A DNA stretch of 64,000 nt, taken from NCBI RefSeq assembly GCF_007750395.1, contig NZ_CP036281.1, positions 719,211 through 783,210 on the forward strand, in the 5' to 3' direction. Every line of letters begins with the position of its first letter. The stretch's first letter is position 1. The DNA is from Polystyrenella longa. Lineage in GTDB: Bacteria; Planctomycetota; Planctomycetia; Planctomycetales; Planctomycetaceae. A program made the translations under genes and the position numbers. Below are positions 36,057 to 48,102 of the stretch, one piece after another. The notes below the pieces were generated by a model. The model did not search any database. It worked only from the letters and a program-made list of their open reading frames with translations, and was not told the DNA's origin.

Positions 36057-36472
36057 GGGAGAGGGTCGGTATTAGGTGCAATAGATAAAGGGTTTGACCG
36101 AGGACGTACAGGTTACCCAACGTAGAGGGGGATGACAGCCGCAGGCTCACCTTAAATTTGGCGTGGGACGGGATTTGTGATGATTCTGCTCTCTGAGCTT
36201 CGGGATTGTCTGCCTTTCTGAACGTTTCATACGATGTTCCAGAAAGCGTCAAAATCTGTCACTAGAAGGGTCGGTCTGATTTTTACCTTAAGTCGTAAAA
36301 TTCCTATTGTACCATGTTTGTGGAATATTATGAATGTTTGTGCGTGTTAACCGTCGGTTAGCTTGATTAAAAGATCATTAACATGCATATTAATGGAAGA
36401 AAATGATTGATCGTGAAAGGTTACCAGCGCATACTATCTTCACAGGATGTCTACAAGATAGAGGAACAACCA
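36057..36472 (+). promoter_or_regulatory. Regulatory spacer before the BMC regulator with two palindromes
   Basis: Two palindromes lie within 50 bp. One is the perfect TAACCG-T-CGGTTA at 36348-36360. The other is an 18-bp palindrome with one mismatched pair, ATTAACATGCATATTAAT, at 36377-36394. Their position upstream of the DeoR-family gene is what an autoregulatory operator would show. The core TAACC recurs in the direct repeats before pduL. Assignment to the regulator is inference. Confidence 0.5.
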
Positions 36473-37240
36473 ATGCTGGTTGCTGAACGAAGAAGCAGTA
36501 TTCTCCACGCGGTGGAAGAAAAAGGGTTTGTCTCCCTGCATGAACTGGCTGAGCTGGTTCGGGCAAGCGAGTCGACGATCCGCCGTGATTTAGAGTTTCT
36601 CGATGGAAGCCAACAGATCCGTCGTACCCGAGGTGGGGCGGCTTATGTGGGGGAATCGATTACCTCATTTGAAGAACGGATTTCCACAGCTTCACTGGAG
36701 AAACAGAAAATCGCGGAAGCGGCAGCCAATCTCATTGAACCGGGAGAGGCGATTCTGCTCGACGGGGGGACGACGACACTCGAAGTCGCCCGCCATCTGG
36801 TGAATAAACCGCTTCAGGTGGTGACGAATTCGTTACCGATCATGAATCTGCTCGTCAATCAACCGTTGATCGAGCTGATGATACTGGGCGGGTACCTCTA
36901 TCCCAAGACCGGCGTGGCCCTGGGGCCTCAGGCGACCGCCAGTCTGGAAAACATACACGTTCGACGATTGATTATCAGCGTCGGGGGAATTACCCGCAAA
37001 GGGTTGTTCAACAGTAACGCATTGCTCGTTTCGACCGAACGGGCGATGCTGACCTCTGCTGATGAAGTCATGGTGGTGGCAGACAGTTCCAAGTTTAACA
37101 AGTCGGCATTAGTCCATTTGTGCGAACTGGAAATGGTCGATCACATGGTTGTCGATTCCGGAATTACAAATGAGTGGATCGAAATTCTCCAGCGAGCGAA
37201 TATCGAACTGACGATTGTGGATGTCAAAAAAGAGTCTTAA
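36473..37240 (+). CDS. DeoR/GlpR-family transcriptional regulator of the BMC locus
   Basis: This 255-residue regulator has an N-terminal winged helix (ASESTIRRDLEFLDGS with the DeoR signature) and a C-terminal sugar-phosphate sensor domain. The sensor motifs are LDGGTTTLEVARHL and VVTNSLPIMNLL, then SVGGITRKGLFNS and VMVVADSSKFNKSA. ATG 36473 follows GAGGAAC; an upstream TTG frame adds 22 unlikely residues. DeoR-family proteins in sugar operons usually repress until a phosphorylated sugar binds. Here it lies 64 nt upstream of pduL and is the obvious candidate controller of the BMC operon. Palindromes lie before it and direct repeats after it. Confidence 0.9.
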   Translation: MLVAERRSSILHAVEEKGFVSLHELAELVRASESTIRRDLEFLDGSQQIRRTRGGAAYVGESITSFEERISTASLEKQKIAEAAANLIEPGEAILLDGGTTTLEVARHLVNKPLQVVTNSLPIMNLLVNQPLIELMILGGYLYPKTGVALGPQATASLENIHVRRLIISVGGITRKGLFNSNALLVSTERAMLTSADEVMVVADSSKFNKSALVHLCELEMVDHMVVDSGITNEWIEILQRANIELTIVDVKKES

Positions 37241-37304: not shown

Positions 37305-38021
37305 ATGACCACTTCCACCATGAATTACAGTCGTGACTCGATTGAGAAAATTGTCCGTGACGTGTTGACGCAGAAACTGGCGGGACAAGTTACGAGCCCG
37401 GCGATGCCTGCTGACAAGCCGAATCCGCTGGTGGTGAATATCTCCGCCCGGCACGTTCACCTGACCGACGAGCACGTTCAAATTCTGTTCGGCAAACCGG
37501 AACTGGAGATCGATAAAGATCTCTATCAGGATGGTTATTATGCCGCGAAAGAAACCGTCGCTGTTGTCGGCCCGCGCCGTCGCATGATTCCTAATGTTCG
37601 CGTGCTGGGACCTTGTCGGGGCGACTCCCAGATTGAACTCGCTTTTACAGACGGTATCTCCCTTGGGATTGATCTGCCTGTTCGTGTCAGTGGCGACATC
37701 AAGGGAACACCTGGTTGTGTACTGGTTGGCCCTGCGGGAGTGGTCGAACTGAAACAAGGCGTTATCCGCGCGATGCGACATGTTCACATGGGTCCGGCTG
37801 ATCTGAAATACTATGGCGTAGAGAATGGTGAAAAGATGAATCTGCGAGTCGAGTCGGAAGGTTGCACAACCGTCCTCGAAGACTTGCAGGTCCGAGCGGA
37901 TAAAGACATCAAGCTCGAAGTTCACCTCGATACGGACGAAGGTAACGCCATCAATCTGGACCGGGCGACGAAAGTCGAACTGCTCAAAAAAGAGCCCTGT
38001 GCCTGCAAACACAAACATTAA
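37305..38021 (+). CDS. pduL: PduL-type phosphotransacylase with N-terminal encapsulation peptide
   Basis: PduL moves the acyl group from acyl-CoA to phosphate inside BMCs, regenerating CoA. The 238-residue protein has the duplicated PduL barrel with His ligands for the two zinc ions in [12 protein letters not shown] (about residue 46) and AMRHVHMGP (about residue 158). The first 30 residues ([18 protein letters not shown]) form an amphipathic helix followed by a Pro-rich linker, the shape of an encapsulation peptide. In this pathway the substrate would be lactyl-CoA (or propionyl-CoA), giving lactyl-phosphate for the acetate-kinase homologue. First enzyme of the BMC operon. Confidence 0.93.
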
Positions 38022-38171
38022 ACGAAGCAAAACTTTCTCTGAGATGTTCATTCATCTCGGAAGAATTGTCAGACAATGTCTGATTTGTCGGAATGGATTT
38101 AAATACATTTGATTCTGCATCTGCAGAGTAAATAACTTTTTGATTACTTAACTTTAGTGGGAGAAAATCCT

Positions 38172-38465
38172 GTGGCTAAAACTATGGAAGCTTTGGGAAT
38201 GATCGAGACCAAAGGTCTCGTCTGTATGATCGAAGCCGCCGACGCCATGCTGAAAGCAGCAAACGTTGAAATGGTCGGTTGGGAAAAAATCGGTTCTGGT
38301 CTGGTGACCTCTTTCGTCGTCGGTGATGTTGCCGCCGTGAAAGCAGCCATCGACGCGGGTGCAAACGCCGCTTCCAAAATCGGTGAAGTCGTCAGCGTGC
38401 AGGTTATTGCCCGTCCGCACGAAGAACTTGATTCTGTCATTCCCAAGGCTGCTAAAGCCAAGTAA
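38172..38465 (+). CDS. BMC-H shell protein 1
   Basis: This hexamer-forming shell protein of about 97 residues has a single BMC domain. The start is GTG 38172 (encoding [10 protein letters not shown]) with GGGAG 9 nt upstream; an earlier GTG at 38157 would add five residues. The body reads [20 protein letters not shown], and the pore loop is KIGSGLVTS, as in PduA-like proteins, which have small polar pores. The C-terminal strand ends [15 protein letters not shown]. The 150-bp gap after pduL and the similar gap before the second BMC-H hint at separate leaders that could boost shell-protein yield. Confidence 0.93.
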
Positions 38466-38632
38466 TGGGTCTGATTTGATAACTCTTAGTTGAGACGACT
38501 GTCATGGTGCAAACTCCCGATAAGCGGAATGGCACTCCGGAAGACGTCTCTGATTTCCTGGATTCACAACTCACGTTCGATTTCCGATCGAACCTGGTAC
38601 ACACATCGAAAACTATAAAGGAATTTCGTCCT

Positions 38633-38905
38633 ATGAAGGGTGAAGCAATCGGCCTGATCGAAACCAAGGGCCTTGTTGCCCAGATGGAAGCTGCTGACGC
38701 TATGCTGAAAGCAGCCAACGTTCAACTGGTCAAGCAGATCAACATTGGTGGCGCGTTCATTACAACCGTCATTAAAGGTGATGTCGGATCTGTCCGTGCT
38801 GCTGTCGACGCCGGAGCGGCTGCGGCCTCTCAGTGTGGCGAACTCGTCAGCGCTCACATGATTCCTCGTCCGGAAGCAAACCTGATCGAAAAATTCATCG
38901 GTTAA
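38633..38905 (+). CDS. BMC-H shell protein 2
   Basis: This second single-domain BMC shell protein has 90 residues. I place the start at ATG 38633 (MKGEAIGLIETKG) with AAGGA about 10 nt upstream. The frame stays open back to 38504 but the added 43 residues resemble no BMC extension. The body (AIGLIETKGLVAQMEAADAM) parallels BMC-H 1. The pore region is NIGGAFITTV, where Gly-Ala-Phe replaces Gly-Ser-Gly-Leu, so the central pore may differ in selectivity. The pair and the lack of any BMC-T gene match the known PVM-type shell. Confidence 0.93.
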   Translation: MKGEAIGLIETKGLVAQMEAADAMLKAANVQLVKQINIGGAFITTVIKGDVGSVRAAVDAGAAAASQCGELVSAHMIPRPEANLIEKFIG

Positions 38906-39004
38906 TCCCGAAGGATCAATTCAGGTCGAGCGTCAGCGGACTGTTGTCATCAATTGTCTCAAACGGAACCAACCACTATTACTCCGGAGCACGGAATCAG
39001 CTCA

Positions 39005-40198
39005 ATGAAAGTACTCGTCGCCAATCTGGGATCAACCAGTTTTAAATATCGTCTGTATGATTTTCCGAGTGAGCAACAGCTCGCGCGGGGGGGCATTGAC
39101 CGGATCGGTCTAGGCGATAGCAACTGTTTTGTCGAGATCGGAGAGCACCGGGAAGAAGTAGTGGAAAACATCGCCAACCATGCGGAGGCGGTGCGGATCT
39201 GTTTGCAACAGTTAACGGCTCCAGAAACGGGTTGTCTCGATTCGGTCGACGAAGTGTCGGCTATCGGATTCAAGGCAGTCTTTGCTGGGCGGTTAAGTGG
39301 TATTCGGATTGTTAATGAAGAACTGCTGACAGCGATGGAGAACCTGGGCGATATTGCCCCGGCTCATAATCCACCGTACGCCGCCGCAATGCGGCAGTTG
39401 ATGCAGTCTTTCCCCGAGATTCCACTCGTGGCCGCGCTCGAAACGGCCTTTCATGAAACGATGCCGGAAGAACATCGCCTGTATGCCGTTCCTTACGAAT
39501 GGAAAACAGAATACGAAGTTCAACGGTGGGGTTTCCATGGAGCCAGCCATCGGTTCATCGGTCGTCGGATTGGTGAACTTCTCGGACGGGATGACCTCCG
39601 GGTGGTCTCGTGTCATCTCGGCGGAAGCAATTCGCTTTCTGCTCTGGTGAATGGGAAGTCGATGGCCAACAGTCTGGGGATGAGCCCACAGTCCGGGTTG
39701 CCGCACAATAATCGTGTGGGTGACTTCGATCCGTTTGCTCTTCCCGTGTTAATGAGAGCGACAGGAAAATCGCTCGAAGAGTTACTGGAGGACCTCGCCA
39801 ATAAAAGTGGGCTGCTCGGTTTGAGTGGCTTAAGTGGCGATGTTCGTGATCTGGAGGAAGCAGCAGCAGAAGGGCATGCTCGAGCCGAAATGGCTTTGAA
39901 CACGTTCGCCGCTGCGATCAAACAGTATCTCGGTTCTTATCTCGCGTTTCTGGGAGGGGCCGACGCGATTGTCTTCACGGGTGGAATCGGTGAGAACAGT
40001 CAACGAATTCGAGAGCAGGTCTGCCGCAATATGGAATGGGCAGGCATTGTACTGGATGAAACCGCGAACCAGTCTGCAACTGAGGAATGCCGCATCTCTA
40101 CACCAGAGAGCAAAACCCAGGTTTGGGTTATTCCGACAAACGAAGAAGTGGTTGTCGCTCGACAGACAGTCGAAACTCTCGAACAACATCAGAAGTAG
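39005..40198 (+). CDS. ackA: Acetate kinase-family protein
   Basis: This 397-residue kinase of the acetate/propionate kinase family makes ATP from an acyl-phosphate. ASKHA-fold motifs are [14 protein letters not shown], the [14 protein letters not shown] segment and a terminal [14 protein letters not shown]. The region corresponding to the Gly-rich loop reads [16 protein letters not shown], where usual AckA has HLGNGAS, so the active site is a variant. The start at ATG 39005 gives a standard N-terminus; an in-frame TTG at 38954 adds 17 residues. No encapsulation peptide is visible, so it probably acts outside the shell on lactyl- or acetyl-phosphate that leaves it. Confidence 0.87.
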
Positions 40199-40235: not shown

Positions 40236-40547
40236 ATGTTCCTGGCACGCATTACAGGCAGTCTTGTTTCTTCGCACAAAGTCGAAGTGATGACCGGGCA
40301 GAAACTGCTCATCGTCGAACCATTGCGGGTAAACGAGAAAGATCAATCTGATCTGCAACCCACTGGTCGCACCTTCGTGGTGGTTGACCCGTTAGGTGCA
40401 GGTGAGGGGGAAGTGGTGTTATGCGTTCAGGGTTCCAGTGCCCGGTTCACGAAGGAAACCAAACATCTACCGGTTGACGCCGCCATCGTGGGGATTGTTG
40501 ATACGGTGCAGGTGGGAGGGAATACGGTGTTTAAAGGGAGCGAGTAA
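40236..40547 (+). CDS. BMC-P (EutN/CcmL) vertex protein 1
   Basis: This 103-residue pentameric vertex protein of the EutN/CcmL family caps the 12 corners of a BMC shell. The fold begins MFLARITGSLVSSHKVEVMT, and the central strand is FVVVDPLGAGEGEVVLCVQG with the conserved GxGE..L turn. AAIVGIVDTVQVGG ends the barrel. It is the first of three BMC-P genes in the operon. It is followed 2 nt after its stop by the membrane protein gene. Confidence 0.92.
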   Translation: MFLARITGSLVSSHKVEVMTGQKLLIVEPLRVNEKDQSDLQPTGRTFVVVDPLGAGEGEVVLCVQGSSARFTKETKHLPVDAAIVGIVDTVQVGGNTVFKGSE

Positions 40548-40549
40548 GG

Positions 40550-41074
40550 ATGAGTATGCAAGGCAGTCAGTTACAGCTATCGGCTCCACCGACGGAAGCC
40601 GAAAAAGAAAATCAGACCCGAACGATTCAGGTCATCATTGCCGCGTTGATTATGGGATTCGTCACCGCAGGCGGGATATTTCTCTTTTTGGCAATGGGGG
40701 ATAAAGAACTCTTAACCGATCCAAGTGAGTTCATGTTTCTGTTTGCAATCGCGTTTTCATCTATGTGCATTGTTGCCCGAGGGGTCGTGGGAGTCGTGAT
40801 GCCCAAGGCGACGTTATCCCAGATCAAACATCTTGATCGGGAGGAACAGGAAGCTCGATTGTGGATGTCGTATCAACCTCTGGCGATTGTTAGAGGGGCT
40901 CTGCTGGAGGGGCCAGGTTTCTTCACCCTGACGATGTTTTTCGTTACGGGCAACCTGCTGCTTCTTTATGTGGCAATGGGATTATTGTTCCTGATGATTA
41001 TCAGTTTTCCTTCCCGATTTAAAATTGATAACTGGGTGGAAGACAAACTGACACAACTTGACTTGAACCGCTAA
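40550..41074 (+). CDS. Membrane protein embedded in the BMC operon
   Basis: This 174-residue integral membrane protein has three or four helices: VIIAALIMGFVTAGGIFLFL, LFAIAFSSMCIVARGVVGVV, and a long C-terminal hydrophobic stretch (FFTLTMFFVTGNLLLLYVAM, then LLFLMIISF). Its start follows the BMC-P stop by only 2 nt and its ribosome site overlaps that gene, so the two are translated together. No transporter motif or conserved charged residue within the helices was seen. An inner-membrane role in feeding or positioning the BMC, or metabolite exit, is conceivable. I do not recognise the family. Confidence 0.75.
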   Translation: MSMQGSQLQLSAPPTEAEKENQTRTIQVIIAALIMGFVTAGGIFLFLAMGDKELLTDPSEFMFLFAIAFSSMCIVARGVVGVVMPKATLSQIKHLDREEQEARLWMSYQPLAIVRGALLEGPGFFTLTMFFVTGNLLLLYVAMGLLFLMIISFPSRFKIDNWVEDKLTQLDLNR

Positions 41075-41149: not shown

Positions 41150-42580
41150 ATGACACAAGCGACTGCGGATGCGATTCGATCAGTGGTGGAAGAAGTGCTG
41201 GCGCAACTGGGGAACGGCCCCGTAGCTGCCCCTTCCGCCCATGGCGCAGCGGCCGGCAACTGGGGTGTTTTCCGGACGGTCGACGAGGCTGTTGTTGCAG
41301 CAACTGCTGCCTTCGAGCAACTTCAGGAAGCTACGATGGAGACTCGCAATAAAGCGATCAACATCGTCAAGCACATCTGTGACAGTCAGGCGGAAGAACT
41401 GGGACGGCTTGAGTTCGAAGAAACCAAAATCGGCAAGCTGGAACATAAAATTGCCAAATTGCAGATCATCAAAGATGTTCCCGGAACTGAATTCCTGCGA
41501 ACGGACGCCGTAACGGGCGACCATGGTTTGACGATTACTGAATACGCCGGGTTTGGTGTTATCGGAGCGATCACTCCCGTGACTCACTCCTTACCGACTC
41601 TTGCGGGGAACTTTGTGAGTATGGTTTCCGCAGGGAATACCATTGTTTGCAATCCTCATCCCAGCGGAGCGAAAATCGCCTGCGAAGGAGTTCGCCGGTT
41701 TAATAAAGCAATTTACGAAGCGACAGGCCTCAACAACCTGGTAACCATCATCGGTGAGCCGACTCTCGAAACAGCCGAGCAGGTCTTCAGTCACCGAGGC
41801 ATTAAACTACTGTGCGTGACGGGGGGACCGGGCGTTGCCCGCGCTGCTCTGGCCAGCAAAAAACGAGCGATTGTCGCCGGACCGGGGAATCCTCCCGTAG
41901 TCGTCGACGAAACTGCCGATATCGAAAACGCCGCACGCAGCATCGTGACGGGTGCCGCGTTTGATAACAACTTGCTGTGCATCGGCGAGAAAGAAGTCTT
42001 CGCCGTGGAGTCGATCTTCGATGACCTGATGCAAGCGGTCGGCCGTAACGGTGGATACCGTCTGAATGCCGACCAGGTCGCCCAACTGACGAAACTCGCT
42101 TTCAGTCCTCCCAAAGAAGCGGGTGGACATTGGGGATTGAACCGGGACTTCATCGGAAGAGATGCTTCCTGGCTCGCGGCACAGATCGGACTCAACATTC
42201 CGGCAGACACACAAATTATCTACGGTGAAACGGATACCAACAATCCATTCGTTCCCGAAGAACAGATGATGCCCTTTATTCCGTTCGTACGGGCTCGTAA
42301 CGCCGATCATGCGATTGATCTCGCGGTCGAATTCGAACATGGATTTGGTCACACCGCCATTATTCACTCTCGCAACGTTCGTAACATGTCCAAAATGGGA
42401 CGTCGGGCGAACTCAACCTTGTTCGTTAAAAACGGACCTTGTAGTGCGGGATTAGGCTTAGGGGGCGAAGGCTACCTTTCCTTCAGCATCGCGACTCCCA
42501 CAGGCGAAGGGGTCACCAATCCGCTGACCTTCACTCGTCAGCGTCGCTGTGTGATGGTGGACGATCTTCGCATCATTTAA
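41150..42580 (+). CDS. CoA-acylating aldehyde dehydrogenase with encapsulation peptide
   Basis: This 476-residue PduP/EutE-type enzyme oxidises an aldehyde to acyl-CoA with NAD+. The first 22 residues ([17 protein letters not shown]) form an amphipathic helix plus Pro/Ala linker, typical of BMC cargo. The aldehyde dehydrogenase core follows. [20 protein letters not shown] is the NAD-binding start, and [18 protein letters not shown] is conserved in the acylating group. The catalytic Cys lies in [14 protein letters not shown]. In the PVM pathway it converts L-lactaldehyde to lactyl-CoA. Placement before a BMC-P gene in the operon agrees with that role. Confidence 0.93.
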
Positions 42581-42638: not shown

Positions 42639-42896
42639 ATGGAACTTGCCCGTGTCATCGGCCAAACGACTGCGACGATCAAGCACGACACTCTGAAAGG
42701 GTGCCGGTTGAAGATCGTGGAAGTGCTCGATGCCAAAGGGAAAGGGGGCGGTGATCCGATCATCGTACTCGATTCTCTGGGGAGCCGCGTTGGCGACCGG
42801 GTGCTACTGACTTCAGACAGTAAACTGATTGCCGAGATGCTCCAGGCGGATAACACTCCCGCCCGGTTTGCCATTCTCGGTCTGGCGGACAATTGA
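42639..42896 (+). CDS. BMC-P vertex protein 2
   Basis: This 85-residue EutN/CcmL homologue is shorter than the other two BMC-P proteins. The start is LARVIGQTTATIKHDTLKGC, then ILDSLGSRVGDRVLLTSDSK-type sequence (here VLDSLGSRVGDRVLLTSDSK), and the end AILGLADN. The stop TGA overlaps an in-frame TTG of the next gene, but the next true start is likely ATG 42926. Confidence 0.92.
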   Translation: MELARVIGQTTATIKHDTLKGCRLKIVEVLDAKGKGGGDPIIVLDSLGSRVGDRVLLTSDSKLIAEMLQADNTPARFAILGLADN

Positions 42897-42925
42897 AGTC
42901 CGCCTTACGAAACAGATACGAATTC

Positions 42926-43570
42926 ATGAACGTTGACCAGAACCTGATTAATGACATCGTTCAGGGGGTCCTGCAGCAGCTGCAGCCGACCGCAGCCCCG
43001 GTTACGTTGTCATCACCTTCAGTCTTCCTGGTCAAGGAAAAGTTATGGACAGCCGATTTGCTGGAGGACCTGGTTCCTGCACAAGTGAAAGTCGTCCAAC
43101 AACTGCCGGGCACGATCGTGACTCCCTCGGGACGCGATTACCTTCGGCAGAATCACATTGACGTGATTCAATCAGAAAACAACAACGGTTCCAACACTAC
43201 TGCTGGCATTCAAACCTGGAAGGTATTGGTCGTGAAATCGGCTTCTGCCTTTGAAAGTTGCTGGCCTGAGTTAGAACGAAGTCGGTCCACGAACTGGAAT
43301 CGACAACAGGCGAATGATGTCGATTCTGCCGTCACGGAAACGATCAGTATTCTCTGTCGCGGAGAAGCTTCTGGCGTAGTGATCTTAACAGACCGACCGG
43401 AAGAGGCGGCCTGTTTTGCCAATCGGAATCATCAAGTGAGAGCGGTGGCGACCTTGTCCGCCGACAGAATGAAACAACTGAAAACGAGTCTTCAACCGAA
43501 TGCGGTTTGTCTCGATCCTCAGAACTTAAGCTACATGGAGCTTCGCCAGTTATGGCGTGCTCTCAGTTAG
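42926..43570 (+). CDS. BMC cargo protein of unknown function with encapsulation peptide
   Basis: This 214-residue protein opens with NLINDIVQGVLQQLQPTAAP, a good encapsulation peptide. I chose ATG 42926 because it exposes that peptide at the terminus. Residues about 50-75 read PGTIVTPSGRDYLRQNHIDV, a TPSxRDYL segment also seen in other BMC accessory proteins. The C-terminal half (CFANRNHQVRAVATLSADRM) is weakly reminiscent of RpiB-like sugar isomerase domains found in BMC loci, but without a clear catalytic Cys. It lies between two vertex-protein genes. Enzyme or structural cargo; function not established. Confidence 0.75.
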   Translation: MNVDQNLINDIVQGVLQQLQPTAAPVTLSSPSVFLVKEKLWTADLLEDLVPAQVKVVQQLPGTIVTPSGRDYLRQNHIDVIQSENNNGSNTTAGIQTWKVLVVKSASAFESCWPELERSRSTNWNRQQANDVDSAVTETISILCRGEASGVVILTDRPEEAACFANRNHQVRAVATLSADRMKQLKTSLQPNAVCLDPQNLSYMELRQLWRALS

Positions 43571-43594: not shown

Positions 43595-43882
43595 ATGCGA
43601 ATCGCGGAAGTAATAGGAAAAGTAACCTTGTCTCAACCTCACTCCTCGTTGCGAGGGGGCCGGTGGGTGTTAGCGGTTCCGCTGACGAAAGAAGGGTTAC
43701 AGGGAAAGAAAACAGGACGCGGGGAACCGTTTGTCGTCTACGACGACATCGGCTGCAATGCCGGTTGCCGGATTGCCGTCAGTGAAGGGGGCGAAGCGGC
43801 GGCTCCCTTTCATCCAGACAAAAAACCAATTGATGCCTACGCGGCAGCCATACTCGATCACATTGAAGTTGAATCGAAATAA
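43595..43882 (+). CDS. BMC-P vertex protein 3
   Basis: This 95-residue third EutN/CcmL protein begins RIAEVIGKVTLSQPHSSLRG and has FVVYDDIGCNAGCRIAVSEG where other BMC-P proteins have the Gly-rich turn. It has two Cys in that turn (GCNAGC), which the other two BMC-P proteins lack at this place. Three BMC-P genes match the known PVM set. Mixed pentamers or different corners are possible. Confidence 0.92.
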   Translation: MRIAEVIGKVTLSQPHSSLRGGRWVLAVPLTKEGLQGKKTGRGEPFVVYDDIGCNAGCRIAVSEGGEAAAPFHPDKKPIDAYAAAILDHIEVESK

Positions 43883-43941
43883 CTCAACCTGAACCGAACA
43901 CGATTGCTTGAAAAGCCAATAAATAAGAAAAGGTCATGACC

Positions 43942-44880
<939 letters not shown>

Positions 44881-45081: not shown

Positions 45082-46005
45082 ATGAAAGTCAGTATTATTG
45101 GTGGTGGTGGATTGGTCGGTTCCTGTGCCGGGTTTGCATTGCAGGCTGGCGGGATCGTTCGCGAGATTGCCCTGATTGACGTCAATCCTGACGTCGCCGA
45201 AGGTCAGGCTCTCGACTTGCTTCATGGAAGCTCGTTACTGTCGGACCAGGTGATCGTTTCAGGCGGCACCGAGCAGGTGAAAGATTCTGACGTCATCGTC
45301 ATTACGGCCGGTCTTCGCCGTAAACCGGATGAAAGCCGTCTCGACTTGATCAACCGGAACGTCGAGCTGTTTAAAAAGATTCTGGTCGACATCAAATCAC
45401 ATGGCACAAAAAAAGACGCCATCTGCTTTGTCGTTTCTAACCCAGTTGACGTGCTGACCTATCTGGCCGTTAAAGAACTGGACCTTCCCTGTTCGCAGGT
45501 GATTGGTTTGGGAACGGCGCTCGATACAACGCGGTTCTGCGGTATCCTGGCGAATCGACTCAACGTCCCTCCGACACAAGTCTCCGCGATGATGTTGGGC
45601 GAACATGGTGACAGTATGGTTGCCGTCTGGTCTGCCGCTCAAATCGCCGGTCTGCCCATCGATAAATACCCCGGTGTGACTCCTACCTTGCTCGCCGAAG
45701 TGGAATCCAAAACACGTGGAAGTGGAGCGGAAGTTATCAAGAAAAAAGGGGGAGCGGGTTTTGCTGTCGGTGTCGCGATTGCTGATATCGTTCACAGCAT
45801 CGCTCTCGACCAACGTCGCGTTCTGCCTGTTTCGTCTCTGCAAAACGGAGCCTATGGCATTTCCGATGTCTGCCTCTCGGTTCCCACCGTCATCGGTCGG
45901 GCCGGTGTGCTCAGTCAGGTCGAAGTCGAACTATGGCCTAAAGAGATCCGAGGCATTCAGAACTCCGGCAAAGTGCTGCGAGAAACGATCGATAAGGTTT
46001 TATGA
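45082..46005 (+). CDS. Malate/lactate dehydrogenase-family enzyme
   Basis: This 307-residue NAD-dependent LDH/MDH family enzyme has the Rossmann motif GGGGLVGSCAG, LIDVNPDVAEGQALDL, the catalytic Asp in DTTRFCGIL and the catalytic His in MLGEHGDSMV. The specificity loop reads ITAGLRRKPDESRLDL. The residue aligned with the LDH Gln102 is Arg, as in malate dehydrogenases, so oxaloacetate/malate or another substrate with an extra negative group is favoured over lactate. Homologues in PVM BMC loci are called lactate dehydrogenase. No encapsulation peptide seen. It may balance NADH from the aldehyde dehydrogenase. Confidence 0.88.
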   Translation: MKVSIIGGGGLVGSCAGFALQAGGIVREIALIDVNPDVAEGQALDLLHGSSLLSDQVIVSGGTEQVKDSDVIVITAGLRRKPDESRLDLINRNVELFKKILVDIKSHGTKKDAICFVVSNPVDVLTYLAVKELDLPCSQVIGLGTALDTTRFCGILANRLNVPPTQVSAMMLGEHGDSMVAVWSAAQIAGLPIDKYPGVTPTLLAEVESKTRGSGAEVIKKKGGAGFAVGVAIADIVHSIALDQRRVLPVSSLQNGAYGISDVCLSVPTVIGRAGVLSQVEVELWPKEIRGIQNSGKVLRETIDKVL

Positions 46006-46149: not shown

Positions 46150-47385
46150 ATGCAAAAGAGTCTTGATCGAAAACTGAATTCCATCCACAACGATCCAAGT
46201 GGATCTAAGGAATTCATCATCGCTGATGCCAAAGATGCCGACATGGCGTTCGGGTTGAGCGCGACGGGAGAGTATGTCGATCCGGCGACTGGTCAAGTGC
46301 GCAATAAGACCTTAGGCGAATATCGGGATCAAATTCGCGAAGTCATCGCGCAGGGAATTGTAGATATCGTCCTGATGTCCGCTTCCACGGCGGAAAAACT
46401 GGCGATTGAAGAAAAGCTGTTTGAGAATTCTTTACTCACGCCTGCGGCTCGGGGCAACGATACCACCGACGTCCATATTCCACGGGGTGGTACTGCCTTT
46501 CAGGAAGCGTCGTTTCCATTTCGGTCCGCATCCATCGATCACATGATGAGTGGCAAGCTCGACCCGACCGATGCTGAACGAAAACGGGGAGTCGATCTCG
46601 CCCTCTATTCGATTACGTTCAACAATAATCGCGATCTCGATCTGCACGCACTGGAACAATACAAGCTCTTCCGTGAAGAAGCAGAACGAAAAGGGTTCCG
46701 ACATTTCCTGGAACTGTTCGATCCAAATTTGCCCGGTGCCGTTCCTCCTGAACAGGTCGCCGGATTTATCAACGATCAAATCGTTCGCACACTCGGGGGA
46801 GTGACCAGTAAGGGCCGACCTGTCTTTCTGAAGATGGTCTATCATGGGCCCCAGGCAATGGAAGAACTTGTCGCTTACGATCCGCACCTCGTTGTCGGTG
46901 TACTGGGTGGGGCAGCCGGAACGACACTCGACGCGTTTACTTTGCTACATGAAGCCAAAAAATATGGTGGCCGCGCGGCACTCTTCGGTCGTAAGATCAA
47001 CCAGGCCGAACATCAACTTGCCTTCATCCAGTTCCTGCGTCATCTGGCGGATGGTCTGATCGAACCGGTTGAGGCGGTGAAAGCGTATCATGGCGTTCTG
47101 GAAAAACTCAACATCAAACCACGGCGGACATTGGAAGAAGACCTGACGCTTCAGACTTCTGTAATGAGTTATGGTGGTAGCGGAACGACGATCAGTATCC
47201 CCAAATCGTCGACCAAACTGGCCAGTGTCAAAGCCGCGACTTGGAAGCCGACAGAGAAACCGGTAGCGAAACCGGCAGCAAAGTCAGTCGAGAAACAGAC
47301 TGCTTCCGCTCCCGATTTTAATAGCATGAGTTCTGATGAACGCTTGAAGTATCATCAGGATCGCCTCGCGAACCTGTTCGGATAA
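46150..47385 (+). CDS. TIM-barrel aldolase-like protein with C-terminal tail
   Basis: This 411-residue protein folds as a TIM barrel related to class I aldolases of the DeoC/LacD/FbaB type. FLKMVYHG holds a candidate Schiff-base Lys, and VGVLGGAAGTTLDAF with RAALFGRKINQ form a phosphate site at the barrel end. After the barrel a Lys/Pro/Ala-rich linker (KPTEKPVAKPAAKSV) leads to a short terminal helix, SSDERLKYHQDRLANLFG. The linker-plus-helix layout looks like a targeting tail, though different from the BMC helices upstream. The substrate is unknown; a second DHAP-producing or using aldolase is likely. Confidence 0.75.
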   Translation: MQKSLDRKLNSIHNDPSGSKEFIIADAKDADMAFGLSATGEYVDPATGQVRNKTLGEYRDQIREVIAQGIVDIVLMSASTAEKLAIEEKLFENSLLTPAARGNDTTDVHIPRGGTAFQEASFPFRSASIDHMMSGKLDPTDAERKRGVDLALYSITFNNNRDLDLHALEQYKLFREEAERKGFRHFLELFDPNLPGAVPPEQVAGFINDQIVRTLGGVTSKGRPVFLKMVYHGPQAMEELVAYDPHLVVGVLGGAAGTTLDAFTLLHEAKKYGGRAALFGRKINQAEHQLAFIQFLRHLADGLIEPVEAVKAYHGVLEKLNIKPRRTLEEDLTLQTSVMSYGGSGTTISIPKSSTKLASVKAATWKPTEKPVAKPAAKSVEKQTASAPDFNSMSSDERLKYHQDRLANLFG

Positions 47386-47460: not shown

Positions 47461-47721
47461 ATGTACAATGAAGATGACGAGATCTACGGAGACGAGGATG
47501 ACGTTCCCCTCGATAATGAGGATGATGAACGGGAGATTGCCTGTCCCGATTGCGGACGGATGATTTACGAAGACGTCGACGTCTGCCCCTACTGCGGTTA
47601 CTTCATTCTTGACTCCGACCGGACTTATCCATCACTGCTCAATGCCTCCTGGTTCCGCTGGCTCGGTTTACTGGGCATCATTGCCGTCGTGTTCGTACTG
47701 ACGGTCATGCAAGTCTTTTAA
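47461..47721 (+). CDS. Small zinc-ribbon membrane protein 1
   Basis: This 86-residue protein has a very acidic N-terminus (YNEDDEIYGDEDDVPLDNED), a zinc ribbon with two CxxC pairs (CPDCG and CPYCG) and a C-terminal membrane helix (WLGLLGIIAVVFVLTVMQVF). It is a tail-anchored-like protein with its zinc finger in the cytoplasm. It begins 75 nt after the TIM-barrel gene, making it a probable member of the same transcript. No function can be assigned. Confidence 0.75.
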   Translation: MYNEDDEIYGDEDDVPLDNEDDEREIACPDCGRMIYEDVDVCPYCGYFILDSDRTYPSLLNASWFRWLGLLGIIAVVFVLTVMQVF

Positions 47722-47790
47722 ATCAATGCTGAATTTGCTTCACGGAAGCCTGTTTCTCTGTTTAAAATAGAGGGTCAGGTTTTTTTGTTG

Positions 47791-48102
47791 ATGCGTTCAA
47801 GCGAAAGGCACGGCGTGGGATACGGCTATGAAGGAAATGATTGGACTTCTTCATCGGACTACATCGGCTCCGATGGTGGTGAAGAAAAATATATTCGCTG
47901 CCCCAACTGCGAAGTGAAGCTGCGAATTTCCGTATTGAAATGTCCGAAATGCGGAGCCAAGGTTCAGGACCCGAAACCCGCGACCTGGTTCGAGAACATC
48001 GGAGGAGCCATCATGATCTTTTTCGCTCTTTTAATGGTGTTCGCGATCTTCAGTTGTCTCGCGGAAGCTTTCCTGGAGATCGTTTCTTTAATTACGAGCT
48101 AG
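47791..48102 (+). CDS. Small zinc-ribbon membrane protein 2
   Basis: This 103-residue protein has the same plan as its neighbour: acidic/polar N-terminus, zinc ribbon with CPNCE and CPKCG, then a hydrophobic helix (GGAIMIFFALLMVFAIFSCL). The start is ATG 47791; the frame extends two codons further with TTG. Direct adjacency with a similar layout suggests an old duplication. Its stop codon forms the start of the repeat copy TAGATCTTGTCCAAGATAAG at 48100. Confidence 0.72.
   Translation: MRSSERHGVGYGYEGNDWTSSSDYIGSDGGEEKYIRCPNCEVKLRISVLKCPKCGAKVQDPKPATWFENIGGAIMIFFALLMVFAIFSCLAEAFLEIVSLITS

Follow-up and report, generated by a model that had tools for sequence, protein, structure and literature searches.

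A predicted class I aldolase with a conserved C-terminal tail beside the PVM microcompartment locus of Polystyrenella longa

Microcompartments of the PVM (Planctomycetes-Verrucomicrobia) type are known as organelles for fucose and rhamnose, with a single class II aldolase supplying them. In the genome of Polystyrenella longa (assembly GCF_007750395.1), a PVM locus is directly followed by a gene (46150-47385, forward strand) coding for a TIM-barrel protein with a linker and a short terminal helix, which raises the question of what a further enzyme of this kind does next to the organelle and what its tail is for. The analysis covered a stretch of 64,000 nucleotides of contig NZ_CP036281.1 (positions 719,211 to 783,210), called here the window, and all coordinates are those of the window unless another locus is named.

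The PVM locus and the gene behind it

The window encodes, on the forward strand, a DeoR-family regulator that is the first gene of the locus (36407-37240; PF00455/PF08220), a PduL phosphotransacylase with an N-terminal encapsulation peptide (37305-38021; PF06130), two BMC-H shell proteins (38157-38465 and 38504-38905; PF00936), an acetate/propionate kinase, AckA (38954-40198; PF00871), three BMC-P shell proteins (40236-40547, 42639-42896 and 43595-43882; PF03319), a CoA-acylating aldehyde dehydrogenase (AldDH) with an N-terminal encapsulation peptide (41150-42580; PF00171, NF011927), a class II aldolase, the PVM signature enzyme, with a C-terminal encapsulation peptide, MNSLVQAITSQVMAALDARK (43936-44880; PF00596), and a member of the lactate/malate dehydrogenase (LDH) family, which closes the published-type cluster of 13 genes (45082-46005; PF00056/PF02866). 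From the regulator to the class II aldolase, this is the composition described for PVM loci (PMC11346464; PMC4207490). Two further proteins lie inside the operon. A 174-aa protein with hydrophobic, membrane-like stretches (40550-41074) occurs in only part of the related loci, and a 225-aa protein without a Pfam match (42893-43570) is encoded between two BMC-P genes; its N-terminus, QNLINDIVQGVLQQL, resembles a canonical encapsulation peptide, and the protein is probably an unrecognised cargo. In the Gemmataceae-like loci L037, L103, L118 and L130, the LDH carries a C-terminal extension with a conserved [VR]IPR[ST]AW-like end, possibly a second unusual tail.

The barrel gene lies behind the dehydrogenase gene, where the first-pass annotation had placed it. 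The gap between the two is 144 bp, and nothing in it resembles a promoter or a terminator. Behind the barrel, two small zinc-ribbon proteins, each hydrophobic at the C-terminus, are encoded (47461-47721 and 47785-48102), the first of them also occurring at the same place in several relatives (L046, L051, L055, L096, L099 and L104).

The thirteen genes of the window, namely DeoR, PduL, two BMC-H, AckA, BMC-P, the 174-aa protein, AldDH, BMC-P, the 225-aa protein, BMC-P, class II aldolase and LDH, are the same in order and number as those of locus L201 in genome G074, which we take to be the genome of Planctopirus limnophila, the model species for PVM microcompartments. In the window and in many relatives, the tailed barrel gene is added as a fourteenth gene after LDH, whereas it is absent from G074 and from its congener G034. 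The published cluster of P. limnophila, pvmABDEGHIJKLMNO, has 13 genes (PMC11958385), and this species uses both fucose and rhamnose (PMC11958385); the barrel is therefore not needed for the use of these two sugars, if the identification of G074 is right. A requirement for a second aldolase in rhamnose use was likewise considered, and is unlikely for the same reason.

In 20-kb stretches around the gene, the usual place of the barrel is the end of the series DeoR-PduL-BMC-H-BMC-H-AckA-BMC-P-AldDH-BMC-P-BMC-P-aldolase-LDH. A survey of 393 Planctomycetota genomes that are at least 90% complete, from which two marginal barrel matches were left out, found a pentamer shell gene in 60 of the 62 genomes with a full barrel match, against 156 of the 393 overall (counts uncorrected for relatedness). 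The two shell-less exceptions (G204 and G397) both encode tail-less barrels. As the last gene of complete PVM loci in many genomes, the barrel gene is part of this locus; it is an accessory gene, because PVM loci that lack it have all the other genes. That it is a housekeeping gene adjoining the BMC operon by chance, a reading to which the PVM genomes without a barrel and the genomes that encode it elsewhere would lend something, is very improbable in view of the same position in dozens of loci from many families and of the shell genes in nearly all bearers. In one Planctomicrobium-type group, the start of the barrel gene is overlapped or abutted by a gene for a membrane-like protein without a Pfam match (L050:8080-9057), with homologues in L064, L119, L131, L135, L148 and L175.

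Fold and predicted catalytic residues of the barrel

The open reading frame has an ATG start and a TAA stop and encodes 411 amino acids. The 142 homologues found are from planctomycetes without exception. An AF2 model built with 53 homologues predicts a TIM barrel at residues 1-335 (46150-47154), with pLDDT mostly above 90, followed by a flexible Lys/Pro/Ala linker (residues 336-387; 47155-47310), in which residues 340-384 have pLDDT below 50, and by a C-terminal tail (residues 388-411, PDFNSMSSDERLKYHQDRLANLFG; 47311-47382) with a terminal helix at residues 395-410 (pLDDT about 82-87). Open reading frame and model thus agree with the architecture first read from the letters, a Lys/Pro/Ala linker and a terminal helix ending in ERLKYHQDRLANLFG. 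Averaged over 6878 pairs of homologues, the core is 66% identical, the tail 47% and the linker 17%; the linker varies in length as well as in sequence (28-76 residues). Three or more cysteines, often in CxC pairs, are present in the linker or tail of about 27-30 of the 142 barrels (L033, L036-L039, L044, L045, L094, L105 and others), which suggests that these lineages bind metal or form disulfides there.

No Pfam or NCBIfam match was obtained for the 411-aa protein, and neither the protein nor its profile had a sequence match in the PDB. The fold was compared by Foldseek and then by VIA-align Z scores, and all top matches are Schiff-base aldolases: ADH synthase (2qji, Z 23.0, the best), LsrF (4p2v, 22.5), an archaeal FBP aldolase (2yce, 22.2), a sulfohexulose-1-phosphate aldolase (8tnf, 21.0) and tagatose-bisphosphate aldolases (about 20). 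Scores of 20-23 extend over about 250 residues at an rmsd of about 3 A for the ADH synthase, LsrF, FBP, tagatose-bisphosphate and SFP aldolases. In brief, the predicted catalytic residues are: D26 on beta-1 (46225-46227), unsubstituted in the 131 homologues that have the position and given its role from the fold, as is E188 on beta-5 (46711-46713); K228 on beta-6 (46831-46833), the predicted Schiff-base lysine, aligned with K203 of Escherichia coli LsrF; and R281 in a GRK motif after beta-8 (46990-46992), the predicted phosphate-binding arginine, aligned with the GRN motif of LsrF. E188, K228 and R281 are identical in all 140 aligned homologues, the tail-less ones included. The pairing of K228 with LsrF K203 was recovered by hhalign with a pairwise P of 0.001 and a probability of only 21%. 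The fold together with the invariant D26, E188, K228 and R281 marks the barrel as a predicted class I (Schiff-base) aldolase.

With LsrF and the DhnA-LacD class I aldolases and thiolases, the protein shares the TIM barrel, the beta-6 Schiff-base lysine and the GG and GR motifs. It differs from these members and relatives of PF01791 in an identity of 11-17% in structural alignments, in its C-terminal linker and tail helix, and in the lack of a PF01791 match by hmmscan even at E 10; it is therefore not filed as a member of PF01791, of which no member was found in the genome of the window itself. The barrel family has no curated model. No discussion of the gene was found in the literature searched, Erbilgin 2014 lying outside that search. 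It may have stayed unannotated because the genome matching the model species does not have it and because there is no curated model. The initial description of a second aldolase-like barrel stands as far as the barrel itself is concerned, but the other aldolase of the locus (43936-44880) belongs to class II (PF00596) and is not a TIM barrel, so that the two aldolases differ in fold.

A conserved charged tail and its association with the organelle

The tail follows the motif PDFxxM[TS]xxE[RK]LxYHRxRLxRxxG in about 123 of the 142 barrels; five others have diverged tails, twelve are tail-less and two are cut off. This recurrence goes beyond chance. The alignment of homologue tails, proposed as a check in the first-pass annotation, shows conservation, contrary to the first half of the refuting condition named there, and supports the suggestion of a tag-like tail on a linker, the linker itself being variable. 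The N-terminal end of the tail forms a capping pattern, M-[ST]-x-x-E. With the encapsulation peptides of BMC cargo, the tail has in common a short terminal helix, a flexible linker and its presence on an enzyme encoded in a BMC locus. However, those of PduL, AldDH and the class II aldolase in this locus follow the hydrophobic pattern I/L-V..[IV][TV].[QE]V[ML]..[LM] (LVQ.IT.QVM.AL in the conserved aldolase tail), from which the barrel tail departs, being charged and rich in E, R, H and Y; the dissimilarity remarked on in the first-pass annotation is borne out by this comparison. A profile of the tail, searched against 19 genomes, gave one full-strength match per genome with a tailed barrel, always the barrel, and matched no other protein. 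The tail is therefore that of a single protein and not a shared tag, and the idea of a second cargo class with a common tag finds no support. In a comparison of the tail profile with the PDB, a weak resemblance to S5a (PD[LF]xxMTxxExxAY, E 0.1) was put down to chance or to shared helix-capping.

Tail and locus are associated. A PVM locus houses just one tail-less barrel of the 12 (L149), but 78 of the 102 tail-bearing barrels that could be placed (Fisher p 5.5e-5, with L139, L185, L186, L117 and L120 counted as diverged tails; p 0.00095 in a stricter automatic count). Parsimony on the tree puts tail-less forms at three points or more, and they are concentrated on a few long branches; the events are therefore few, and the Fisher count is not one of independent events. 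The tail is retained by barrels that have relocated within genomes bearing a PVM (L050, L056, L064, L047 and others); this favours a function of the tail in trans over a by-product of position. A tail is not an absolute requirement in genomes with both barrel and organelle, since about nine shell-bearing genomes encode a tail-less barrel elsewhere in the genome and L149 lies within a PVM locus.

From the association of tail and locus, the tail probably tethers the barrel to the PVM organelle. More specifically, it could be a dedicated, non-canonical recruitment peptide of one accessory enzyme, docking at a site of the PVM shell or core that ordinary encapsulation peptides do not use; with it, planctomycetes could connect a further, often unlinked, pathway branch to an organelle that they already have. 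This is put forward tentatively, with slightly more doubt than belief. Alternatively, the tail could act in cis, folding onto the barrel of the same or an adjacent chain to serve as a lid or in oligomerisation, in a cytosolic enzyme that is merely co-regulated with the PVM operon. C-terminal tails are indeed functional in some class I aldolases, the FBP aldolases among them, and the helix has a pLDDT of about 85 in the single-chain model. Nevertheless, such a role is unlikely given that 12 homologues with the same invariant catalytic residues are entirely without a tail, that the linker is predicted to be disordered and varies, with a length of 28-76 residues, and that loss of the tail tracks absence from the PVM locus. 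The difference between the tail and the encapsulation peptides of the same locus makes a different partner plausible, and the tail could have another cargo enzyme as its partner, for example the class II aldolase, or bind to the shell from outside; the barrel would then cluster with the organelle while bypassing the usual entry route. We consider this no more probable than the cis alternative, and LDH is ruled out as a general partner, because LDH-less PVM loci such as L036, L096, L099 and L104 keep the tail.

Candidate substrates and the proposed role

The neighbourhoods of four relatives bear on the substrate. Outside the usual locus, the gene order in L179 (G204) is D-lyxose isomerase, ketohexokinase, barrel, a gene of unknown function and a GH38 mannosidase, that in L188 (G329) is barrel, PfkB kinase, D-lyxose isomerase and GH38, and that in L180 (G397) is a sugar-isomerase-like protein (NCBIfam SftI, 121 bits, under the cut-off of that model), PfkB and barrel. 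L139, which lies within a PVM locus, has the order class II aldolase, barrel, PfkB, D-lyxose isomerase and DeoR, its PfkB being 43% identical to that of L188. These isomerase-kinase-barrel arrangements suggest that the barrel is a ketose-1-phosphate aldolase with dihydroxyacetone phosphate (DHAP) and an aldehyde as products; in the mannose-type operons, fructose-1-phosphate would be the natural candidate substrate.

Sulfo-EMP pathways consist of an isomerase, a PfkB kinase and a class I aldolase acting on a ketose-1-phosphate, and the same logic is found around the relatives of the barrel. The fold is shared with the sulfo-EMP aldolases YihT and 8tnf (Z 20.5-21.0), with no significant hhalign match to YihT. 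However, sulfonate-pathway genes were not seen at the window, and the neighbours of two relatives point to mannose. At the locus of the window itself, the sugar isomerase and kinase partners are absent, and none of the 149 relatives of the window searched has Lyx_isomer. A D-lyxose isomerase/ketohexokinase route in the genome of the window was accordingly rejected, the Khk match in G000 being sub-threshold only.

The barrel could also be an FBP or other DHAP-joining aldolase that works in the synthetic direction and removes the DHAP released by the class II aldolase. FBP and tagatose-bisphosphate aldolases are among the nearest solved folds, and the PVM pathway yields DHAP (PMC8857213), but relatives of the barrel adjoin genes of the ketose 1-kinase type (PfkB, ketohexokinase), aldose isomerases and mannosidases, a catabolic arrangement, and we rate this alternative as still less likely than either of those discussed for the tail. 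The best explanation, which we regard as somewhat better than an even call, is a class I aldolase that is accessory to the PVM organelle, acts on a ketose-1-phosphate and is tethered by its own tail. As such, the barrel would probably split a ketose-1-phosphate into DHAP and a short aldehyde, with K228 as the Schiff-base lysine, and in most bearers it would supplement the class II fuculose/rhamnulose-phosphate aldolase of the PVM as an accessory enzyme. A second aldolase would widen the range of sugars, the toxic aldehyde arising where the aldehyde dehydrogenase of the organelle can oxidise it. The tail, a charged helix that caps itself and is joined through a flexible linker, would bind at a site of its own, different from the one used by the canonical encapsulation peptides.

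If this is true, many planctomycetes would feed a second sugar to their PVM organelles, and the tail would add to the known targeting peptides one that is orthogonal to them and of use for loading engineered shells.
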